Assembly (NCBI GenBank): GCA_003134435.1
Contig: PLBE01000251.1
Location: forward strand, 34,997-72,752
Length of the DNA: 37,756 bases
Direction of reading: 5' to 3'
Origin: Acidobacteriaceae bacterium
GTDB lineage: Bacteria; Acidobacteriota; Terriglobia; Terriglobales; Acidobacteriaceae
Of this stretch, positions 27,058 to 36,325 are shown piece after piece (within the stretch, counting starts at the first letter, position 1; each line of letters opens with the position of its first letter). The notes beneath the pieces were generated by a model. The model made no database searches. It had not been told where the DNA came from and saw only the letters and a list, made by a program, of their open reading frames with translations. The position numbers and the translations under genes are program-made.

Positions 27058-27540
27058 TCAGGCTCCGCCGTGGGCCTTTGCCCTTTCGGTCGATGCTCTG
27101 GCTGGTAGTACCACGACCGTAAACCAATACTCGGCGATGGACCGAATGACTCGACAGAACTGATCAAAATCGACCGGCTTAATGATGTACGAGCTACAGC
27201 GCAGCCTGTACATTTTCAGGATCTCCTCGTCGCTTGCCGAAGTCGTAAGCACGACTACCGGGATAAATTTCAGTTCTTGATCCGCTACCATTTCGGCCAG
27301 CACTTCACGGCCATCTACCCGCGGCATGTTTAAGTCGAGAAGCAGCATGTCGGGCGTGGGGGCATTGCAGTATTTGCCTTGCTTGCGCAGGAAAGCCAGA
27401 CATTCTTCGCCGTCCTTGACGTGGTGCAGGTTGAGCATCAACTTGCACTTCTTGAAACCCTGACGGGTCAGCTCCACGTCGTTTTCGTTGTCTTCCGCCA
27501 GCAGGATCTCCGCCGGTCTGGTGTCAATGTTGCTGGACAT
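27058..27540 (-). CDS. Single-domain response regulator (CheY/Rcp1-like)
   Basis: 160 residues, receiver domain only. Acidic pocket E16-D17, phosphoacceptor D69 (LLLDLNMP), then VVVLTTSAS with the conserved Thr, and YIIKPVDFDQF with the conserved Lys. Start ATG 27540 lies inside the kinase gene, overlapping its last 17 bases (stop at 27524), so the two are translationally coupled. An in-frame start at 27582 is deeper in the kinase and less likely. Lacking an output domain, it must act by protein contact or relay phosphate, as Rcp1-type partners of PAS or phytochrome kinases do. Confidence 0.88.
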   Translation of the reverse strand: MSSNIDTRPAEILLAEDNENDVELTRQGFKKCKLMLNLHHVKDGEECLAFLRKQGKYCNAPTPDMLLLDLNMPRVDGREVLAEMVADQELKFIPVVVLTTSASDEEILKMYRLRCSSYIIKPVDFDQFCRVIRSIAEYWFTVVVLPARASTERAKAHGGA

Positions 27541-29125
27541 TTGTTTGCGCCGTCCCTTCGGGCAGGGTGAAATGAAATACACTTCCGTGTCCGGTTCCGG
27601 ACTCTACCCAGATCCTTCCGCCGTGGCGATTGACAACGCGACGGCAGACGGCCAGTCCAATGCCGGTGCCCGGATATTCGTTTTGACCGTGCAAGCGTTT
27701 GAATATTTCAAAGATCCGCTCGTAATACTTGGGCTCGATTCCAATCCCGTTGTCGCGGACCGAAAAGGTCCATTCCTTCCCGTGGCGTTCGGCGGAAACG
27801 TGGACCTGCGGCGACTGGCCGCCATGGTACTTGAGCCCGTTGCCAATCAGGTTTTGCATCAATTGAACAAGCTGTGACCGGTCGCCCATCACGACCGGCA
27901 GTTCACCACAGGTCACCTGGCCCCCGGCGTCGTGAATAGACGAATCGAGCTGCGCCAAGACGTCATTGAAGACATCGAGGAAGGGCGTTGGCATGAAGGG
28001 ACGGGAACGGGAATCGACTCGCGAATAGGCGAGCACACCGCTGATCAGACTCTGCATCTGTTCGGTGGCTTGAATGGTTCGGCGAATCCAGTCGATGGCT
28101 TGTTCGTCGAACTGGCTCGCATATTCCATCTTGAGCAATTGCACAAACCCGCTGATGCTGCGCAGCGGAGATTGCAGGTCGTGGGAGGCAACGTAGGCGA
28201 ATTGTTGCAACTCCATATTGCTTCGTTCCAGGACTTGGTTGGAAACCGCCAGTTCCTTGGTGCGGTCGGCGACGCGCCGTTCCAGTTCCGCGTTGTCCTC
28301 CTCCGATTTCTTGCGCGCGCTGATGTTGCGGATGGCCGCCGTCACCAGAATGCCTTCGACGCTTTCCAGCGGACTCAACATGATCTCGATGGGGAACTCG
28401 CTGCCGTCCTTCCGCCGCCCGGAAAGCTCGATCCCGGTCCCGATCTGCTGCGCCAGAGCATCGACCGTACTGCGGGTAGCGTCGGCGATCAGCCGTTCCG
28501 CGAAACCGTCAGGAATAATGTTCTTTACTTTCTGACCCAGGAGTTCATCGCGCCGGTAGCCGAACTGCTTTTCCGCCTGTACATTCACCAGGACGATCTC
28601 CCCAACCTGGTTCACCACCACCATCGCATCCGGAGCCGCTTCCAGCAGCCCGCGATACCTGCTTTCCATCTGGACCAGATGCTCTTCCGCGGCCTTGCGC
28701 GCGCTGATGTTGCGGATGGCCGCCGTCACCAGAATGCCTTCGGCGCTTTCCAGCGGACTCAGCATGATCTCGATGGGAAACTCGCTCCCGTCCTTCCGCT
28801 GCCCGGAGAGTTCGATCCCCGTCCCCATCTGCTGCGCCAGAGCATCGGCCGTACTGCGGGTAGCGTCGGCGATCAGCCGCTCCGCGAAGCCGTCCGGAAT
28901 GATGTTCTTTACCTTCTGGCCCAGGAGTTCATCGCGCCGGTAGCCGAACTGCCTCTCGGCCTGCACATTCACCAGGACGATCTCCCCAACCTGGTTCACC
29001 ACCACCATCGCATCCGGAGCCGCTTCCAACAGGCCGCGATACCTCGCGTCCGATTCCCTGCTTTCGGCCAGGTCGCGCCTCATTTTGTTCCCAGTCCCTG
29101 AGTCGTCGTTGCGAATCATCGGCAT
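27524..29125 (-). CDS. Soluble histidine kinase with two nearly identical PAS/PAC repeats
   Basis: 533 residues, no transmembrane helix, so cytosolic. PAS1-PAC (~28-144) and PAS2-PAC (~156-272) are nearly identical in protein and DNA, both beginning YRGLLEAAPDAMVVVNQVGE. A short coiled linker leads to HisKA with His315 (YVASHDLQSPLRS) and then the ATPase domain: N box NLIGNGLKYHG, G1 DNGIGIEP, and FEIFKRLHGQNEYPGTGIGL. This kinase type is close to phytochrome-like and bacteriophytochrome-partner kinases but has no GAF/PHY. The sensed signal is unknown; no heme or flavin residues can be asserted. Its gene overlaps the downstream response regulator. Confidence 0.9.
   Translation of the reverse strand: MPMIRNDDSGTGNKMRRDLAESRESDARYRGLLEAAPDAMVVVNQVGEIVLVNVQAERQFGYRRDELLGQKVKNIIPDGFAERLIADATRSTADALAQQMGTGIELSGQRKDGSEFPIEIMLSPLESAEGILVTAAIRNISARKAAEEHLVQMESRYRGLLEAAPDAMVVVNQVGEIVLVNVQAEKQFGYRRDELLGQKVKNIIPDGFAERLIADATRSTVDALAQQIGTGIELSGRRKDGSEFPIEIMLSPLESVEGILVTAAIRNISARKKSEEDNAELERRVADRTKELAVSNQVLERSNMELQQFAYVASHDLQSPLRSISGFVQLLKMEYASQFDEQAIDWIRRTIQATEQMQSLISGVLAYSRVDSRSRPFMPTPFLDVFNDVLAQLDSSIHDAGGQVTCGELPVVMGDRSQLVQLMQNLIGNGLKYHGGQSPQVHVSAERHGKEWTFSVRDNGIGIEPKYYERIFEIFKRLHGQNEYPGTGIGLAVCRRVVNRHGGRIWVESGTGHGSVFHFTLPEGTAQTNVQQH
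28310..29044 (-). repeat. Intragenic tandem duplication of a PAS module (period 384 bp)
   Basis: 28694-29044 (first in the protein) and 28310-28660 (second) are 351-bp copies offset by exactly 384 bp, i.e. 128 codons. I count about two dozen base differences, mostly at third positions, so roughly 93% identity. The in-frame period keeps the domain spacing intact. Confidence 0.9.
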
Positions 29126-30180: not shown

Positions 30181-31023
30181 CTACGCCGCTGGCGTCGTCG
30201 TCCGCCGGTTCGCCAGCGCGAACGCCAGCCCAAACATGAAAAGCGCGAACAGCACCAGCGTCAAAATCGACGCCGTCAACGAAAACGGAAATGAGAACGA
30301 ACTGGGCGCTCCCGGATACATCAGCGTCCTCAGCGCCTCCACTCCATAGGTCAGAGGATTGGCATACATCAGCCAGCGAATCCATCCCGAGGCCTTCGAC
30401 AGAGGGAAGAGCGCTCCCGAAAGCAACCACAGCGGAATCAGGAATAAATTGATGATGGCATGAAAGGCCTGCGTCGAATCCATCGGCCAGGCGATGGCGA
30501 AGCCGAGTCCGGTCAGCGCGAACGAAATCAGGAACACCGTGAGCACGATCAGACCGAACGAGGCGAGCGTGAAGTGCACGCCCACAAGCGGAGCGAAGAC
30601 CAGAAAAATCAGTCCCTGGGCAGCCGCCAGCGTCGTGCCGCCCAACACCTTTCCCAGAACAATCGCCGCCCGCGGCACGGGCGCGACGAGCACCGAAAGC
30701 AGGAAGCCCTCATTGCGGTCTTCGATCACCGACATCATGGTAAAAATCGCGGTGAAGAGCACGATCATCACCAGCGTTCCAGGATAGAAATAGTCCAGAT
30801 AATTCTGCTGTCCGGCGGCCTGTCCCGACCGAAACGACGTTCCAAACCCAGAGCCGAGCACGACCCAGAACAACAGCGGCGAAAGAATCACGCCCACTAC
30901 GCGCGCCCGCTGCCGGTAGAAGCGCACCACTTCGCGCCACCAGAGCGTAAAGGCGGGCAGCAGAATTCCGGCGGACGCCGGAGCGGTTGAACTCGCGGGG
31001 AACGGGGCCGTTTGGGTTGCCAT
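30181..31023 (-). CDS. ABC-2-type transporter permease (DrrB-like)
   Basis: Inner-membrane permease of 280 residues. About six helices, with the ABC-2 features FTAIFTMMSVIEDRNEGFLL and LVAPVPRAAIVLGKVLGGT, then WLLSGALFPLSKASGWIRWL and a closing NPLTYGVEALR. ATG 31023 is preferred; an earlier in-frame start at 31107 adds 28 unconvincing residues. It needs an ATPase, and the only candidate in the window is the DrrA-like protein at 35288-36325 on the same strand, about 4.3 kb away. Substrate unknown: drug, polysaccharide or heme-related export are possible given ctaA next to the ATPase. Confidence 0.87.
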   Translation of the reverse strand: MATQTAPFPASSTAPASAGILLPAFTLWWREVVRFYRQRARVVGVILSPLLFWVVLGSGFGTSFRSGQAAGQQNYLDYFYPGTLVMIVLFTAIFTMMSVIEDRNEGFLLSVLVAPVPRAAIVLGKVLGGTTLAAAQGLIFLVFAPLVGVHFTLASFGLIVLTVFLISFALTGLGFAIAWPMDSTQAFHAIINLFLIPLWLLSGALFPLSKASGWIRWLMYANPLTYGVEALRTLMYPGAPSSFSFPFSLTASILTLVLFALFMFGLAFALANRRTTTPAA

Positions 31024-31168
31024 AACCTCTAGTTTAACAGCGATCCCAGCTTCCAATGATTTGTAGTAGCTCGAACTCGACCTTGCCCACAGGGTTGGCA
31101 ACGCCACGTATCAGAAACATCCCTGTATCGGATCGGGGAACTGTGAGTATAACCTGTCATCAATCCAG

Positions 31169-31183
31169 TTGACCGTTGGTCAA
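31169..31183. promoter_or_regulatory. Palindrome TTGACC-GTT-GGTCAA, possible operator
   Basis: A perfect 6-bp inverted repeat around a 3-bp centre, in the 266-bp divergent space between the permease and the gene at 31290. CATAAT (31259-31264) may be a -10 box for the rightward gene. The regulator is unknown. Confidence 0.35.
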
Positions 31184-31289
31184 TGAGCGACATTGCGATG
31201 TTACGACAACCACGAGATGGCCAAGGCCAACTGCGTGTCATCTCGCTTGGTGTTAAGGCATAATTCTATGAGCTAAGGCGGAGTTAACC

Positions 31290-31862
31290 ATGGGTAAACT
31301 AGACGAGGTAGCCGGACGCTTTCTGAATCCGGTGTCAGTCGTCGCCGAATCCGATGCTCGCCTTGAGCGTTTACAACCCGAGGCTCGAACCGCCTTCGCG
31401 GTCCTTTGCGCGCAAAGGCTCATGGACGCCCATCTGAGACTGCCAAAATCTGAGCAACGACCGTTCACGCTGTCATGGGCTCCTGTTTTTCAGGTGATCT
31501 GGGCTGGGTTGGAAGCAGCCGATAGCTCTTCAGCAAAGACCATCATTGGTGAGCATTTGAAAGCATTCTATGAAGGCGGGTTCAATCACAATCTTGGACA
31601 GGACGGGCCGTCCGATCCAGATGACGACGCTGCTGCATGTTCGATCTACGCGGCACAAGTGTTCTGTCGGGGCGATGTCAAGTCAGCCCGGTGGGCGGCC
31701 GGTCGAATGATTGACGCATCCGATACGACTTTGCAGGCCGACACATCCGCACCTTCCTCTATGCAGGTCGAAGCCGATCGATTGTTAACGGCGCTGCAAA
31801 TGCTCGAAAGCCAACCTTGGACACCTACCTTGATTCCCGCGCTTCGCGCTGCCTTCCGCTGA
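31290..31862 (+). CDS. Unknown soluble protein, possibly DUF416/immunity-like
   Basis: 190 residues, all-helical by composition, with no signal peptide or membrane helix. Segments ARTAFAVLCAQRLMDAHLRL and DPDDDAAACSIYAAQVFCRG, then WAAGRMIDASD loosely recall DUF416-type helical proteins that occur among immunity genes; this is a weak resemblance. GGAG seven bases before the ATG at 31290 is a good site. It converges with the next gene and lies in the stretch that separates the ABC permease from its likely ATPase. Codon use looks less GC-biased than in neighbours. Confidence 0.7.
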   Translation: MGKLDEVAGRFLNPVSVVAESDARLERLQPEARTAFAVLCAQRLMDAHLRLPKSEQRPFTLSWAPVFQVIWAGLEAADSSSAKTIIGEHLKAFYEGGFNHNLGQDGPSDPDDDAAACSIYAAQVFCRGDVKSARWAAGRMIDASDTTLQADTSAPSSMQVEADRLLTALQMLESQPWTPTLIPALRAAFR

Positions 31863-31932
31863 GACAGCCGTTGGACGCCGCCACGAGAGAGTCGCTCCAC
31901 CGCGGAGGTTGCGCACCGCCGAGACTTGGTCA

Positions 31933-32541
31933 TCAGGGGACTTTAGCTATACGATCTCGCAAACTTTCCAGCTCGTACCTATGTTTTGGCCTCGCTCCCA
32001 CTCGCTGAGCCAAGGCGCTGTCCAGAATTTGCAGTGCGGCGGGTTTGTTCCCTTCGACCATTTGAATCGCTGCGCGCACGAGCACGCGGTCAGTTGTGTC
32101 CAGACCGACATCGTCGGTTCCATCGAGGGCTCTTGAAAGCCTGGGAAGCGTAGAGTATCGATCGATGAAGGGCAAGGCCTCATTCTCCAGCGAAGTCAGA
32201 ATGGGGACACGCAAGCTTGGAAGGTCTTCAGCCCGAGAAAACTTCCATTCTTCAAAGGCCTTGTCCTCGCGAAGAAGGTGGAGCGGCAGGCCCACAGTTC
32301 CTATCATCTCCGTGCGAAGCCACGAACCCAGAGACTCAAATCGCAGTCCAACAATGCAGTTAAAAGCGGCGAAACCCCGTGGGTCAACGCGGCATGGCCA
32401 GGAAAGTGAGGCAATGGCCTCGTTTGCCGGACGTGTATATTCCAGATATTCCAGTCTTGCAGCCCGGCTGAAGCCTAAAGGCGACAGCAAGTCCTTCAGA
32501 AATGTCTCTAGTACCTTTTTCGCTTGGCTCAGCTTGATCAT
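31933..32541 (-). CDS. Unknown protein, possibly DUF4304/immunity-like
   Basis: 202 residues, cytosolic. The N-terminus (LETFLKDLLSPLGFSRAARL, then EYLEYTRPA, and later FAAFNCIVGLRFE) has the 'long helix, GF, beta-strands' start seen in DUF4304-type proteins, a group that includes toxin-immunity proteins. The rest (~95-202) is helical and contains AAIQMVEGNKPAALQILDSA, TPR-like. Identity is uncertain. GGTGAG stands close before the ATG at 32541. It converges with the gene at 31290 (70 bp between stops), so the two may form a small accessory pair. Confidence 0.65.
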   Translation of the reverse strand: MIKLSQAKKVLETFLKDLLSPLGFSRAARLEYLEYTRPANEAIASLSWPCRVDPRGFAAFNCIVGLRFESLGSWLRTEMIGTVGLPLHLLREDKAFEEWKFSRAEDLPSLRVPILTSLENEALPFIDRYSTLPRLSRALDGTDDVGLDTTDRVLVRAAIQMVEGNKPAALQILDSALAQRVGARPKHRYELESLRDRIAKVP

Positions 32542-32722
32542 GGCTCACCAGATTGGCGGAAGGTTGCGAATCAGAAGGTCATCCCATCTATGCGGGATTG
32601 TTATTTGGCGGCCTCAATCATCGACCTACCAATTCTGTCGCAGGTGATGTTTTCTGTAAACAGGGCATTCTCCCACGTTGCGCCTCTGTTCGCTCCCGAC
32701 GCCGCTACGCGCACGACGCATC

Positions 32723-32761
32723 GATCAAATTTTGATCTCCCCGTAACAATTCGGTAACAAT
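32723..32761. promoter_or_regulatory. Operator-like palindrome and direct repeats before the NCS2 permease gene
   Basis: GATCAAA-T-TTTGATC (32723-32737) is a perfect palindrome. It is followed by two direct copies of GTAACAAT (32743-32750 and 32754-32761) with an 11-bp period, placing them on the same face of the helix. Both sites lie within 75 bp of the permease start. Purine-responsive control is conceivable but unproven. Confidence 0.45.
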
Positions 32762-32797
32762 CCGCCCATAACATTGCGCTTTTGTTTTGGAGGTTCA

Positions 32798-34588
32798 TTG
32801 GCTCGCCCGGGCGTTTCCAAGGTCACTGCCGTATTCCCGCAGTCGCTGCGCCGTTGGCGTGATTGGCGCGGCCCGATTGCCTTTCCCGGACGCAAGAAGC
32901 CCGCCAGCCTGATCTACGACGTCGATGACATTCCGCCCATGGCGGTCCAGATTGGCGCCGCCTTTCAGCATCTTTTCGTGATATCGGTCGGTTGGATCTA
33001 CGTTCTGCTCGTGTCGAACGCGATTGGAGGCACGTCGGCGGATGCGCAGAGCCTCATCCGCATGTCCATGATCGCCTCTGGAGTGGCGACCATTGTCCAA
33101 GCCAGGCGCGGCTTTGGCAATGGATACCTGTGCCCGCTCACCTGCAGCCTCACCTATTTATCCCCCGTCGTCCTGGCCGGGATCGCTGGTGGCTACTCTT
33201 TGATGTTCGGAATGCTATTCGCTGCGGGCGTCGCCGGAATGATCGTTTCGCGCGTCGTCCATCGTTTGCGGATGCTCTTCCCCCCCGAAGTGACCGGCCT
33301 CATGGTCGCTATGTCAGGGCTGCAACTGGTAGCGTTGGGCTGCCCGCGTTTTCTCGGCTACTCCAAAGAAAGCGCTGCGGCCGACCCCCGCGCCATGCTG
33401 ATCGGCTTGACGACTCTGTTTGCCATGATTATCCCCACGGTTTGGACCAGAAGTAAGTTGCACCTGTATCCCATGCTGATCGGGGTCGCAGCCGGCTTTG
33501 CCATCGGCTGGGCGATGGGGGAGTTCCACGTCGCGCAGCTGCTGGCGCAGATGCCGCCAGGATTCTTGAGTTTTCCGCATCGGGCGGCGCCCGGCCTTTC
33601 CTTCAAGGCCGCGCTGTTGCCGCCTTTCCTCATTGCCGCCCTAACCGCCAGCCTGAAGACGGTTGGTGATACCACGCTCTGCCAAAAAGTCAACGACACC
33701 ACGTGGAAGCGTACTGACATGAAATCCGTGAGCGGAGGTGTCTTCGCGAACGGTTTCGGAAGCGCCATCTCGGGCCTCCTGGGCGGGATCGGGCAGAACA
33801 CGGCATCGAGCAGCATCGGTATTTCGCTGGCCGCGGGCACGACCAGCCGGGCGATTGCTTTGCCCCTGGGCTTGCTGGTTATGGGACTTGCCTTCTTCCC
33901 CAAGGCGGCCGCGCTCGTAACCGCTTTGCCCGGTCCCGCCGTGGGTGCGATGTTGATCTATTCCGCGTGCTTCATCATTTTGGGAGGTCTCCAGCTCCTT
34001 ACATCGCGCATGCTCGATTCCCGGCGCATCTTCGCCGTCGGAATCGCACTGATTTTCGGCCTCAGCGTGGAGATCATACCCGACCTTTATCGCACGTTCC
34101 CAGCCTTCCTGAAGCCGGTCTTCAGTTCTTCAACTTCGGTCGCGACCGTGCTGGTTGTGATCTTAAGCCTGCTGTTTCGCGTGGGTATCAAGAAACAACG
34201 CAGTCTGGAATTGCGAGCCGGTTCGGAACACCTCGACGAGATCACCCAGTTCATGGAAGACCAGGGCTCTGCCTGGGGTATGAGAAAGGAAGTCGTCACC
34301 CGCGCGACCGATGCTGCCTACGAGGTAGTGAACAACCTGGGCCTCCTGCCGCTCCGCTCCGAGATCATCACTTTGAACACGTCCTGGGACGAGCTTCGGC
34401 TCGATCTCAATATCGAATACTCCGGACCCGCGATTGAACTTGCGAACACCATGCCCGCCTTGGAGGAGATGGGTACGGAGGCCGGCGCCGCACATCTCGC
34501 CGGATACCTGATTCGCCAATATGCCGATCGCGTGAAGATTCGCGAAAAGAACGGCGTCTGCCGCGTCTCGTTACATTTCGATCACTGA
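32798..34588 (+). CDS. NCS2 purine/pyrimidine permease with C-terminal RsbW-like ATPase domain
   Basis: 596 residues from a TTG at 32798, which follows GGAGG (32789-32793). The first ~450 residues are a nucleobase transporter of the uracil/xanthine permease family: IYDVDDIPPMAVQIGAAFQH at the start, about 12-14 helices, and the conserved GGIGQNTASSSIGISLAAGT. The last ~120 residues are soluble and resemble HATPase_c_2 anti-sigma kinases of the RsbW/SpoIIAB type: N box ATDAAYEVVNNL (~503-514), a G1-like IEYSGPAIEL (~537-546) and a closing AGYLIRQYADRVKIREKNG. The Asp of the G1 motif is absent (YSGP instead of DxGxG), so ATP binding may be altered. An NCS2 protein normally has ~430-460 residues. 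The extension suggests a transporter that signals or is regulated. Confidence 0.85.
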   Translation: MARPGVSKVTAVFPQSLRRWRDWRGPIAFPGRKKPASLIYDVDDIPPMAVQIGAAFQHLFVISVGWIYVLLVSNAIGGTSADAQSLIRMSMIASGVATIVQARRGFGNGYLCPLTCSLTYLSPVVLAGIAGGYSLMFGMLFAAGVAGMIVSRVVHRLRMLFPPEVTGLMVAMSGLQLVALGCPRFLGYSKESAAADPRAMLIGLTTLFAMIIPTVWTRSKLHLYPMLIGVAAGFAIGWAMGEFHVAQLLAQMPPGFLSFPHRAAPGLSFKAALLPPFLIAALTASLKTVGDTTLCQKVNDTTWKRTDMKSVSGGVFANGFGSAISGLLGGIGQNTASSSIGISLAAGTTSRAIALPLGLLVMGLAFFPKAAALVTALPGPAVGAMLIYSACFIILGGLQLLTSRMLDSRRIFAVGIALIFGLSVEIIPDLYRTFPAFLKPVFSSSTSVATVLVVILSLLFRVGIKKQRSLELRAGSEHLDEITQFMEDQGSAWGMRKEVVTRATDAAYEVVNNLGLLPLRSEIITLNTSWDELRLDLNIEYSGPAIELANTMPALEEMGTEAGAAHLAGYLIRQYADRVKIREKNGVCRVSLHFDH

Positions 34589-34831
34589 AGCCGTCTCGTC
34601 CGCATGCGCTGGCCGGGCCTTCCCGAAAAACGTGGAGCGTCTCTTTTCGACCAACAGGTCATAACAGTCCCGCGGGTCGCAAAAGAACCCGACAGCTTGG
34701 TGTGCAAGGTCAAGTCTTGACTATCGCAAATAATTGCTGGCTTGCAGATTGGTCATGCCGGCGTCTGGCTGCTGCGCACCCGGATCAAGCCAAATGAATG
34801 ACAAAAGCGACACAAGTGATAAACTACCGCT

Positions 34832-35239
34832 GTGTTTTCCAGACCTGCCGCCGTTTGTGGAGCCTTTCTAGTCTCGCTGGCCTTTTGCGCGTTCGCCCAG
34901 ACCACGCCGCCGGCGAACTCCGATTCAGGCAAGGACTCGCCGAGCGGTGAGGTGTTCAAGGTGGGTCACGGCGTGTCGATCCCTAAAGGGATTTACCAGC
35001 CGGAACCGGAGTATTCAGACAAGGCTCGCAAGAAGAAGATTCAGGGAACCTGTCTGCTTTCGCTGGTGGTAGGCGCCGACGGCAAAACTCGAGACATCCG
35101 GGTGATTCGTCCTCTCGGCTTCGGACTGGACGAGCAGGCCATCAAAGCTGTGTCCCAATGGAGATTCGATCCAGCCCGCAAAGACGGCCAACCGGTGGCG
35201 GTTCAGATCAACGCCGAAGTCGCTTTTAGATTGTACTGA
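34832..35239 (+). CDS. Secreted TonB C-terminal-domain protein
   Basis: 135 residues with a GTG start. A signal peptide (~1-22, ends AFAQ) is followed by a short polar linker and a TonB C-terminal domain: YQPEPEYSDKARKKKIQGTC at ~55, LSLVVGADGKTRDIRVIRPL, then LDEQAIKAVSQWRFDPARKD. Unlike energy-transducing TonB it lacks a persistent N-terminal anchor and a long Pro-rich stalk, so it is probably a periplasmic member of the family. Such short proteins are numerous in Acidobacteriota. No good ribosome binding site precedes the GTG. Confidence 0.82.
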   Translation: MFSRPAAVCGAFLVSLAFCAFAQTTPPANSDSGKDSPSGEVFKVGHGVSIPKGIYQPEPEYSDKARKKKIQGTCLLSLVVGADGKTRDIRVIRPLGFGLDEQAIKAVSQWRFDPARKDGQPVAVQINAEVAFRLY

Positions 35240-35287
35240 CTGCCCACCCGCGTCTTGTGTTTACCCGATCAGACTCTCAGGCCGCTT

Positions 35288-36325
35288 TCATTTGCTTTTC
35301 TTCAGCTTTTTCTTCATGGTTGGATTCATTGCATTCTCTGCGTCTTCGTTCCAAAAGCGATGGCCCGTCCGATGGATGAATACATCTTCCAGTGTCGGCT
35401 TGCTGACGCTGAGCGACTGGATTTCTCCAGGGAACGCTTCGACCACATCGGGTACAAAACGGTGTCCATTTTCAATCTCTATGCGGACTTGCTTGTCCAT
35501 GACTGTAGCCTCTACCTGAAACTTGTCGCGTATGCGCTCGGCGAGCGATTGCGGGTCGGTCGCCTCCAGTAGAATTACGTCGCCGCCGATCTCGCGGGTC
35601 AGAGCCTCCGGCGTGCCGAGCGCTACCAGGTTGCCCTCGTTCAGAATGGCCAATCGGTCGCAGCGTTCCGCCTCTTCCATCAGGTGAGTCGTGACGATGA
35701 CGGAGACGCGTTCCTGATCGCGCAGGATCTGTAAATACTGCCAGAGGTCGCGCCGGGCGCCCGGATCCAGGCCAGTCGTAGGCTCATCAAGTAGCAGAAC
35801 TTCGGGATGATGCAGCAACCCCTTGGCGAGCTCGATGCGCCGCTGCATGCCTCCGGAAAAAGTCTCGACACGGTCCGCCGAGCGGTCCAGCAATCCCACT
35901 CGCATAAGAATCTCGTTGATTCTCGCTTTGAGTTCCGCTCCGCGCAGGCCGTACAAGTGTCCCTGATGCCAAAGATTTTCGTGGGCCGTCAGCTTGGGAT
36001 CGACACTCTGCGACTGGAACACGACACCAATGTGCCGGCGCACCGCTCCCGGTTGTCGAACGGCGTCGAAGCCGGCAATCGTGGCGCCGCCGGACGTTGG
36101 GACCATCAGCGTCGAAAGAATGCGAAACAAAGTCGTCTTCCCGCTGCCGTTCGGGCCCAGCAGCCCAAACAGCTCGGCGGGTCGAACGTCGAAAGAAACG
36201 CCGTTGAGCGCGGTGCGATCCTGATAACGATGGACCAGGTCGCGTACCGTGATGATGGGCGCGCCCACCTTTTCCGCAGGCTGCGCGGCAGGAGCAAAGT
36301 CGATGGCGGATGAGTTCGGGGTCAC
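35288..36325 (-). CDS. ABC transporter ATP-binding protein (DrrA type)
   Basis: 345 residues: one ATPase domain plus the extra ~100-residue C-terminal domain typical of DrrA/CcmA-like exporters. Walker A GPNGSGKTT (~56), Q loop VVFQSQSVDPKLTAHENL, signature FSGGMQRR (~157), Walker B VLLLDEPTTGLD (~177) and the H-loop VTTHLMEEAERCD. The chain ends in a Lys-rich tail. The start is GTG at 36325. It follows ctaA on the same strand by 113 bp. Its membrane partner is probably the permease at 30181-31023, now separated by about 4.3 kb. Confidence 0.93.
   Translation of the reverse strand: MTPNSSAIDFAPAAQPAEKVGAPIITVRDLVHRYQDRTALNGVSFDVRPAELFGLLGPNGSGKTTLFRILSTLMVPTSGGATIAGFDAVRQPGAVRRHIGVVFQSQSVDPKLTAHENLWHQGHLYGLRGAELKARINEILMRVGLLDRSADRVETFSGGMQRRIELAKGLLHHPEVLLLDEPTTGLDPGARRDLWQYLQILRDQERVSVIVTTHLMEEAERCDRLAILNEGNLVALGTPEALTREIGGDVILLEATDPQSLAERIRDKFQVEATVMDKQVRIEIENGHRFVPDVVEAFPGEIQSLSVSKPTLEDVFIHRTGHRFWNEDAENAMNPTMKKKLKKSK

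Follow-up and report, generated by a model that had tools for sequence, protein, structure and literature searches.

An NCS2/SLC23 nucleobase permease from Acidobacteriota carries a degenerate RsbW/SpoIIAB-like tail, a candidate docking site for STAS proteins

Partner switching is known mainly as a means of controlling sigma factors, and the natural ligand of an RsbW-type domain is a STAS protein, as established for RsbW/RsbV and SpoIIAB/SpoIIAA. Excerpts from the transporter literature describe a 7+7 inverted-repeat elevator fold common to SLC23, SLC4 and SLC26 (PMC11362169) and, in SLC26/SulP proteins, an attached cytoplasmic domain taken from the anti-sigma system (PMC8256260). In a further excerpt, the free STAS protein MlaB of the MlaFEDB complex acts in trans on an ABC transporter (PMC7367683). 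Here we describe a gene in a 37,756-nucleotide stretch of an Acidobacteriaceae contig (PLBE01000251.1; this whole stretch is called the window) whose product appears to be a nucleobase permease, probably for purines, of the NCS2/SLC23 family, with a C-terminal tail for which we put the chances about even that it is a docking site for a STAS protein gating transport. The fusion, its predicted fold, its degeneration, its spread and the repeated vicinity of STAS genes in relatives are supported by the observations below, and they suggest a connection between the uptake of nucleobases and partner-switching control.

The gene lies on the forward strand at 32798-34588, in an uninterrupted frame that starts at TTG 32798 (596 residues) or possibly at an alternative TTG at 32774 (604 residues) and runs to a stop at 34588. 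The transport part (32957-34081, residues 54-428) matches Xan_ur_permease (PF00860; E 1e-52) with 179.6 bits against a gathering score of 27. The final hydrophobic stretch ends near residue 466 with none following, and the soluble part, residues 462-596, has a mean hydropathy of at most 0.72 in any 19-residue segment. The sequence-only reading of an NCS2 permease with an extra soluble domain in one frame is thereby confirmed, the soluble tail of about 130 residues being C-terminal to the permease, on the side that is cytoplasmic in NCS2 proteins by topology. The accompanying argument that NCS2 proteins are usually shorter holds as well, with eight tail-less NCS2 frames ending 10-27 residues beyond the place where the window tail starts (LSLLFR). 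PDB matches of the whole protein (P0001) are NCS2 permeases only, and its full-length AlphaFold model from single-sequence input has a pLDDT of 40.

The same architecture is found in L003 and other loci. It is present in L002 (96% identity over the best segment, with Ns inside), in G113, where permease and tail form one frame 52% identical to the window protein, and in more distant relatives, again as one frame. Because the fusion occurs in these separate assemblies, it is not an assembly error, nor are permease and tail separate genes in all close relatives, an outcome that had been named as fatal to the idea of a fusion. Within the tail, the window and L002 differ at 7, 1 and 11 first, second and third codon positions, so the tail evolves like coding sequence. 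The 96% identical permeases of L002 (PMBA01000328.1) and of window 30181-36325 have quite different neighbours, those in L002 being a TPR protein and trehalose-phosphate genes (by reading); for this reason the window permease gene appears to move, or the region to have been rearranged. We also note that genes for an ABC-2 membrane protein and a DrrA-like ATPase (30181-31107 and 35288-36325), of kinds that often adjoin, are split in the window by a block that contains the permease and a TonB_C gene together with two frames that match nothing in Pfam. Further upstream, a histidine kinase on the reverse strand (27524-29125) contains a tandem pair of almost identical PAS blocks that looks like a recent internal duplication.

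The tail (34202-34585, approximately residues 469-596) had been likened to RsbW/SpoIIAB anti-sigma kinases, with a match to HATPase_c_2 (PF13581) expected. Using HMMER, that match failed to appear for the window tail even at E<=1, and neither Pfam nor NCBIfam gave a match that counts. Matches to GDH_ACT3 and a tRNA methyltransferase (E 0.076 and 0.098) are regarded as chance, and tail profiles searched against PDB sequences returned nothing usable, only matches that look like chance or designed proteins. Structure prediction points to a GHKL-like fold and not to some other one. The best of five AlphaFold2 models of the tail alone (pLDDT 68.2, pTM 0.63; the other four have pLDDT 34-53) runs strand, helix, helix, strand, strand, short helix, helix, strand, strand, and Foldseek places it with 18 PDB chains at E<=1e-3, all of them SpoIIAB, UsfX or RsbW entries. 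VIA-align, applied as a second look to the list from Foldseek, gives the RsbW domain of Rv1364c, SiaB, UsfX, SpoIIAB and RsbW Z values of 8.2-9.4 (SiaB and RsbW being level), followed by LvrC at 7.5 and others at 6.5 or less, with an unrelated phosphatase at 6.5; Z 7-8 is often reached by models without a clear match and 8-9 is modestly higher, which is a point against STAS docking.

This placement is further supported, independently of the model, by related tails. HATPase_c_2 matches two of eight window-type tails (set A2, tail-A; best E 0.0017) and four of eight from a second set (A3, tail-B; best E 1.7e-5), the first A3 member scoring 21.4 bits against a gathering score of 27.4, and among the matches listed in the genome search PF13581 picks out a permease tail in G343 at E 8.8e-5, under the cut-off. 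In a single hhalign comparison, twelve tails score 44.7 (probability 92.7, E 4.2e-7) against a target of two distinct real Acidobacteriota RsbW proteins, each entered twice; the best of 100 column shuffles reaches 18.4, and a false target, STAS, gives 10.5. For the A3 tails the score with RsbW is 30.1 (at most 17.6 in 100 shuffles), and A2 and A3 compared directly are weakly similar (probability 23.5, E 0.00087). Fold search, Pfam matches of related tails and profile comparison concur in supporting the assignment of the tail to the Bergerat-type fold of SpoIIAB and RsbW, on a predicted model of middling confidence; the likeness claimed by the sequence-only reading is thus borne out through the fold and the related tails, a PF13581 match of the window tail's own being absent. 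The same concurrence makes it highly improbable that we are dealing with an unrelated two-layer alpha/beta domain that only looks like RsbW, as might be argued from the lack of a Pfam match of its own, from a single model of modest confidence with four worse ones, and from the middling Z.

The ATPase motifs of the tail are degenerate. The N box that had been read in the window tail is present as ATDAAYEVVNNL (34304-34339, residues 503-514), where E509 and N513 form ExxxN, so that both the Glu and the Asn of RsbW kinases are in place. The absence of the G1 Asp was likewise read correctly: in the G1 remnant YSG (34418-34426), Tyr541 stands in place of Asp and Gly543 is kept. Across an alignment of twelve tail-A sequences (G672, G812 and G922 left out), the N-box Glu is found in all twelve, the N-box Asn in two (the window and G113), the G1 Gly in eleven and the G1 Asp in none. 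The place of the G2/ATP-lid helix, AGAAHLAGYLI (34481-34513), was located by eye in an alignment with RsbW, and no G2-box glycine signature is recognisable there by eye. The natural reading of these residues is that the window-type tail is a pseudo-ATPase, and with the ExxxN of the window tail, nucleotide may still be weakly bound. The loss of most catalytic residues would also suit a tail that serves as a dimerisation or stability module only, a signalling-domain fossil without a partner. For such a module it also speaks that RsbW-type domains dimerise and that NCS2 transporters function as dimers, as is reportedly the case for UapA.

Tailed permeases occur in three of 150 genomes of the window's family (G000, G113 and G112; the tail alone as query finds two), with no match in the four other genomes of the window's genus in that sample, and in five of 399 genomes of the class, where the remaining six of eleven matches, 144-183 residues long, are RsbW-like frames that stand alone. 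At the level of the phylum, the full-length profile finds matches at E<=1e-20 in 35 of 396 genomes, many of which have a second tail type; tails are confirmed for the matches among the 50 frames read. Family f2 has matches in 15 of 200 genomes, five of them tailed. The search beyond the phylum covered plasmids, together with one genome-contig scan with the window protein that reaches close relatives only and has L002 as its sole match. On plasmids, we find two tailed copies in Azospirillum thermophilum, one in Pseudoroseomonas cervicalis, and two plus one remnant in Ca. Thiodictyon syntrophicum. Several candidates were set aside: G407, the third f15 genome, looked like a broken tailed permease and has the transport part only, in two frames, with no tail or STAS there; the f91 proteins matched by the tail profile are short stand-alone RsbW-like frames and not permease tails; and the G725 match is a real RsbW. 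The degenerate f91 proteins (L047-L051) are found, by reading, near a gcvT-like (aminomethyltransferase) gene.

A quick tree of 31 of the 50 frames, built on their transport part only, puts tail-A on one side of a branch with SH-aLRT 99, tail-B on a branch with 99, and six tail-less permeases on a third with 100. There are thus two tailed clades in all, one of them common to Acidobacteriota and Proteobacteria plasmids, and this topology would fit two fusions and a single fusion followed by loss equally well.

STAS domains (PF01740) were sought across whole genomes. Among ten tail-A places in Acidobacteriota, a count that excludes L002 as a near copy of the window's gene, six have a STAS domain within 200 bp of the permease. 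In G161 and G363 the two genes are on the same strand and the STAS stop overlaps the permease start by four bases; in G780, G672, G812 and G674 they are divergent, with the edge of the STAS domain 122-194 bp from the permease. These six places come from two families and therefore amount to two independent cases. No STAS domain lies within 1 kb of the tailed permease in G000, G113, G112 or G922, the nearest in G113 being 11.5 kb away and the G112 contig being 6.5 kb long.

STAS genes also lie near tailed permeases on a plasmid and near a tail-B paralogue. In Thiodictyon, a STAS gene lies 32 bp behind the remnant of the third permease tail and 2.9 kb from the second, intact tailed permease, and is followed by genes for a substrate-binding protein, a SpoIIE phosphatase and an RsbW-like ATP-binding protein. 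The cluster on plasmid pTs417 (L095 10716-24137) brings together two tailed permeases, the tail remnant, the genes just named and xanthine dehydrogenase subunits, and a RiPP precursor sits in between. In genus g141, coordinates place STAS two genes downstream from the third paralogue of tail-B in all 13 genomes, its domain 1.1-1.5 kb beyond the matched part of the permease; the tail is confirmed in five of the 13 and gene order was read closely in two, where it is permease, GPP34 gene, STAS. The intervening GPP34 (Golgi phosphoprotein 3 family) gene occupies L069 8020-8697 and L072 8053-8730, its identity coming from a PF05719 match (E 4.1e-46) in one of the two loci. Against STAS docking stand the two Azospirillum copies and the one of Pseudoroseomonas, with no STAS-profile match in flanks of 8-12 kb, and the other tail-B paralogues (g141 types 1 and 2, f21, f45 and f54), with no STAS within 10 kb by eye.

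By chance, 0.002-0.0055 STAS domains per genome would be expected within 1 kb on each side. Near tail-less NCS2 genes, STAS was found at none of the 26 places tested (0/15, 0/10 and 0/1). For the 15, STAS was sought among the matches listed and absence of a tail was established by HMM in eight and by the end of frame or match in the rest, including three long frames that may carry a tail (G163:C70, G380:C97 and G150:C2); for the ten, the linked-STAS profile was run on flanks of up to 1.5 kb, some shorter; the single place is G407. The 26 leave out G132 as well as G142 and G073, whose frames are partial or broken and whose contigs have no STAS among the matches listed. Since STAS lies near tailed permeases in four lineages and near no tail-less place tested, docking of STAS on the tail is the best-supported function in the STAS-linked lineages, where we would give it roughly one chance in two. 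The same distribution weighs against the tail being a fossil that serves dimerisation or stability alone, an account we consider doubtful even though the window's genome and several others have no linked STAS. For STAS docking itself, vicinity is no proof of binding, and the linked cases make up few independent lineages.

The linked STAS proteins resemble one another. Six aligned copies from four lineages have a common YxSSxGL motif, which includes a serine that we take to be at the usual phosphosite, and a later G-F. A profile trained on the linked copies themselves gives those copies 155-163 bits in four genomes, with other STAS proteins there reaching up to 76; in G000, G113, G112 and G922 the best scores are 48-57 bits and the linked subtype is not found, and such tailed permeases, with neither this subtype nor any STAS nearby, count against STAS docking. 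The window's genome has 13 PF01740 matches. Nine of these proteins were compared and have D-S or D-A at the place of YxSSxGL and no G-F, and two outside the nine are SulP-length frames. On the window's contig (C144) there is no PF01740 or PF07228 match. The coupling to partner switching proposed by the sequence-only reading, and the survey of STAS and phosphatase neighbours that went with it, therefore find their support in STAS, SpoIIE and RsbW genes beside or near the relatives' permeases, and none in the window, where neither STAS nor SpoIIE is matched on the contig.

Kinase and phosphatase genes near some permeases raise the question of direction. The tail might hold or release STAS according to nucleobase supply, the freed STAS acting on an RsbW/sigma-factor pair, so that transport would be the input and transcription the output. 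Consistent with this, a real RsbW gene lies convergent and 8 bp beyond the permease stop in G674, SpoIIE and RsbW-like genes are found in the Thiodictyon cluster and within 5 kb of the tailed permease in G363, and the second Azospirillum copy, without STAS, has ECF-type sigma and ChrR-type anti-sigma genes 1.2-2.5 kb away. The last two genes (L094 13638-14929, on a plasmid) are one gene from that permease. In G161, however, the SpoIIE-HATPase pair and the permease are on different contigs, so the vicinity in G363 may be chance. We regard this sensor direction as unlikely and think it likelier that transport itself is directly controlled; the data do not decide whether the transporter acts as a sensor or a STAS protein acts on the transporter.

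For direct control through STAS docking, the following mechanism can be envisaged. The cytoplasmic C-terminus of the permease has become an RsbW/SpoIIAB-type domain that lost most of its ATPase residues, and this tail, because STAS proteins are the natural ligands of RsbW-type domains, would be where a STAS-domain protein docks. The phosphorylation state of the STAS protein, which real RsbW kinases and SpoIIE phosphatases would set elsewhere, would decide whether it binds the permease and opens or locks transport. To assign the same role to the window's own protein is an extrapolation; in its genome, any partner would have to be a generic STAS protein encoded at an unlinked place, or else the domain may now serve dimerisation only.

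The substrate is likely a purine, as suggested by purine-metabolism genes near distant tailed relatives: guanine deaminase and urate hydroxylase genes lie 1-3.6 kb from one Azospirillum copy, and those for xanthine dehydrogenase subunits 8-9.4 kb from the second of the two copies in Thiodictyon. The scanned neighbours of the window gene give no hint of purine metabolism. In its transport part the window protein is like the PbuX-type NCS2 xanthine permeases, the best NCBIfam model being PbuX (TIGR03173, E 5.9e-61), and differs from them in that the family model has no such tail and the protein's 206.4 bits fall far under the curated cut-off of 414.15; the family therefore does not assign the substrate.

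The component parts of this protein are known, and their combination seems new as far as the literature was searched: an NCS2 permease with an RsbW-like tail was not found in print in the open-licence PMC set, a passage search of PMC8256260 gives no occurrence of 'permease', 'nucleobase' or 'HATPase', and plasmid members are annotated 'solute carrier family 23 protein' with the tail unmentioned. If the proposal is true, partner-switching signals would feed directly into nucleobase uptake (or be fed by it), outside transcription, and a permease bearing the RsbW side next to a STAS gene would extend partner switching to the control of nutrient uptake. The role of the SLC26 STAS domain 'has not been fully explored', in the words of one excerpt (PMC8256260). 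The tailed permease and its STAS neighbour would offer a tractable pair in which to study why anti-sigma domains are repeatedly joined to transporters of this fold.

Compared with the RsbW/SpoIIAB anti-sigma serine kinases (HATPase_c_2, PF13581), the window tail is alike in predicted fold, topology and the N-box Glu, whereas the window-type domain sits on a transporter, has lost the G1 Asp and, in ten of the twelve aligned tails, is missing the N-box Asn. MlaB of MlaFEDB, as excerpted, sets a precedent in that a transporter is acted on in trans by a STAS protein that stands alone, but it binds an ABC nucleotide-binding domain that is not RsbW-like, on a transporter that is not NCS2. SLC26/SulP proteins have the same transport fold as the tailed SLC23 permeases and, like them, an attached anti-sigma-type cytoplasmic domain. 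SLC26/SulP fuses STAS, the antagonist side, whereas tailed SLC23 fuses the RsbW side and has STAS as a separate protein where present; no PF01740 match is found within P0001 at E<=1. Because SLC23 and SLC26 have a common transport fold, the tailed SLC23 permease looks like the complement of SLC26-STAS, and it would achieve with a STAS protein in trans what SLC26/SulP achieves in cis with its own STAS domain. We tentatively propose, at somewhat less than even chances, a mirror-image use of STAS control within the SLC4/23/26 fold, with STAS fused to the transporter in SLC26 and, in tailed SLC23, a pseudo-kinase partner fused to the transporter and STAS acting in trans.
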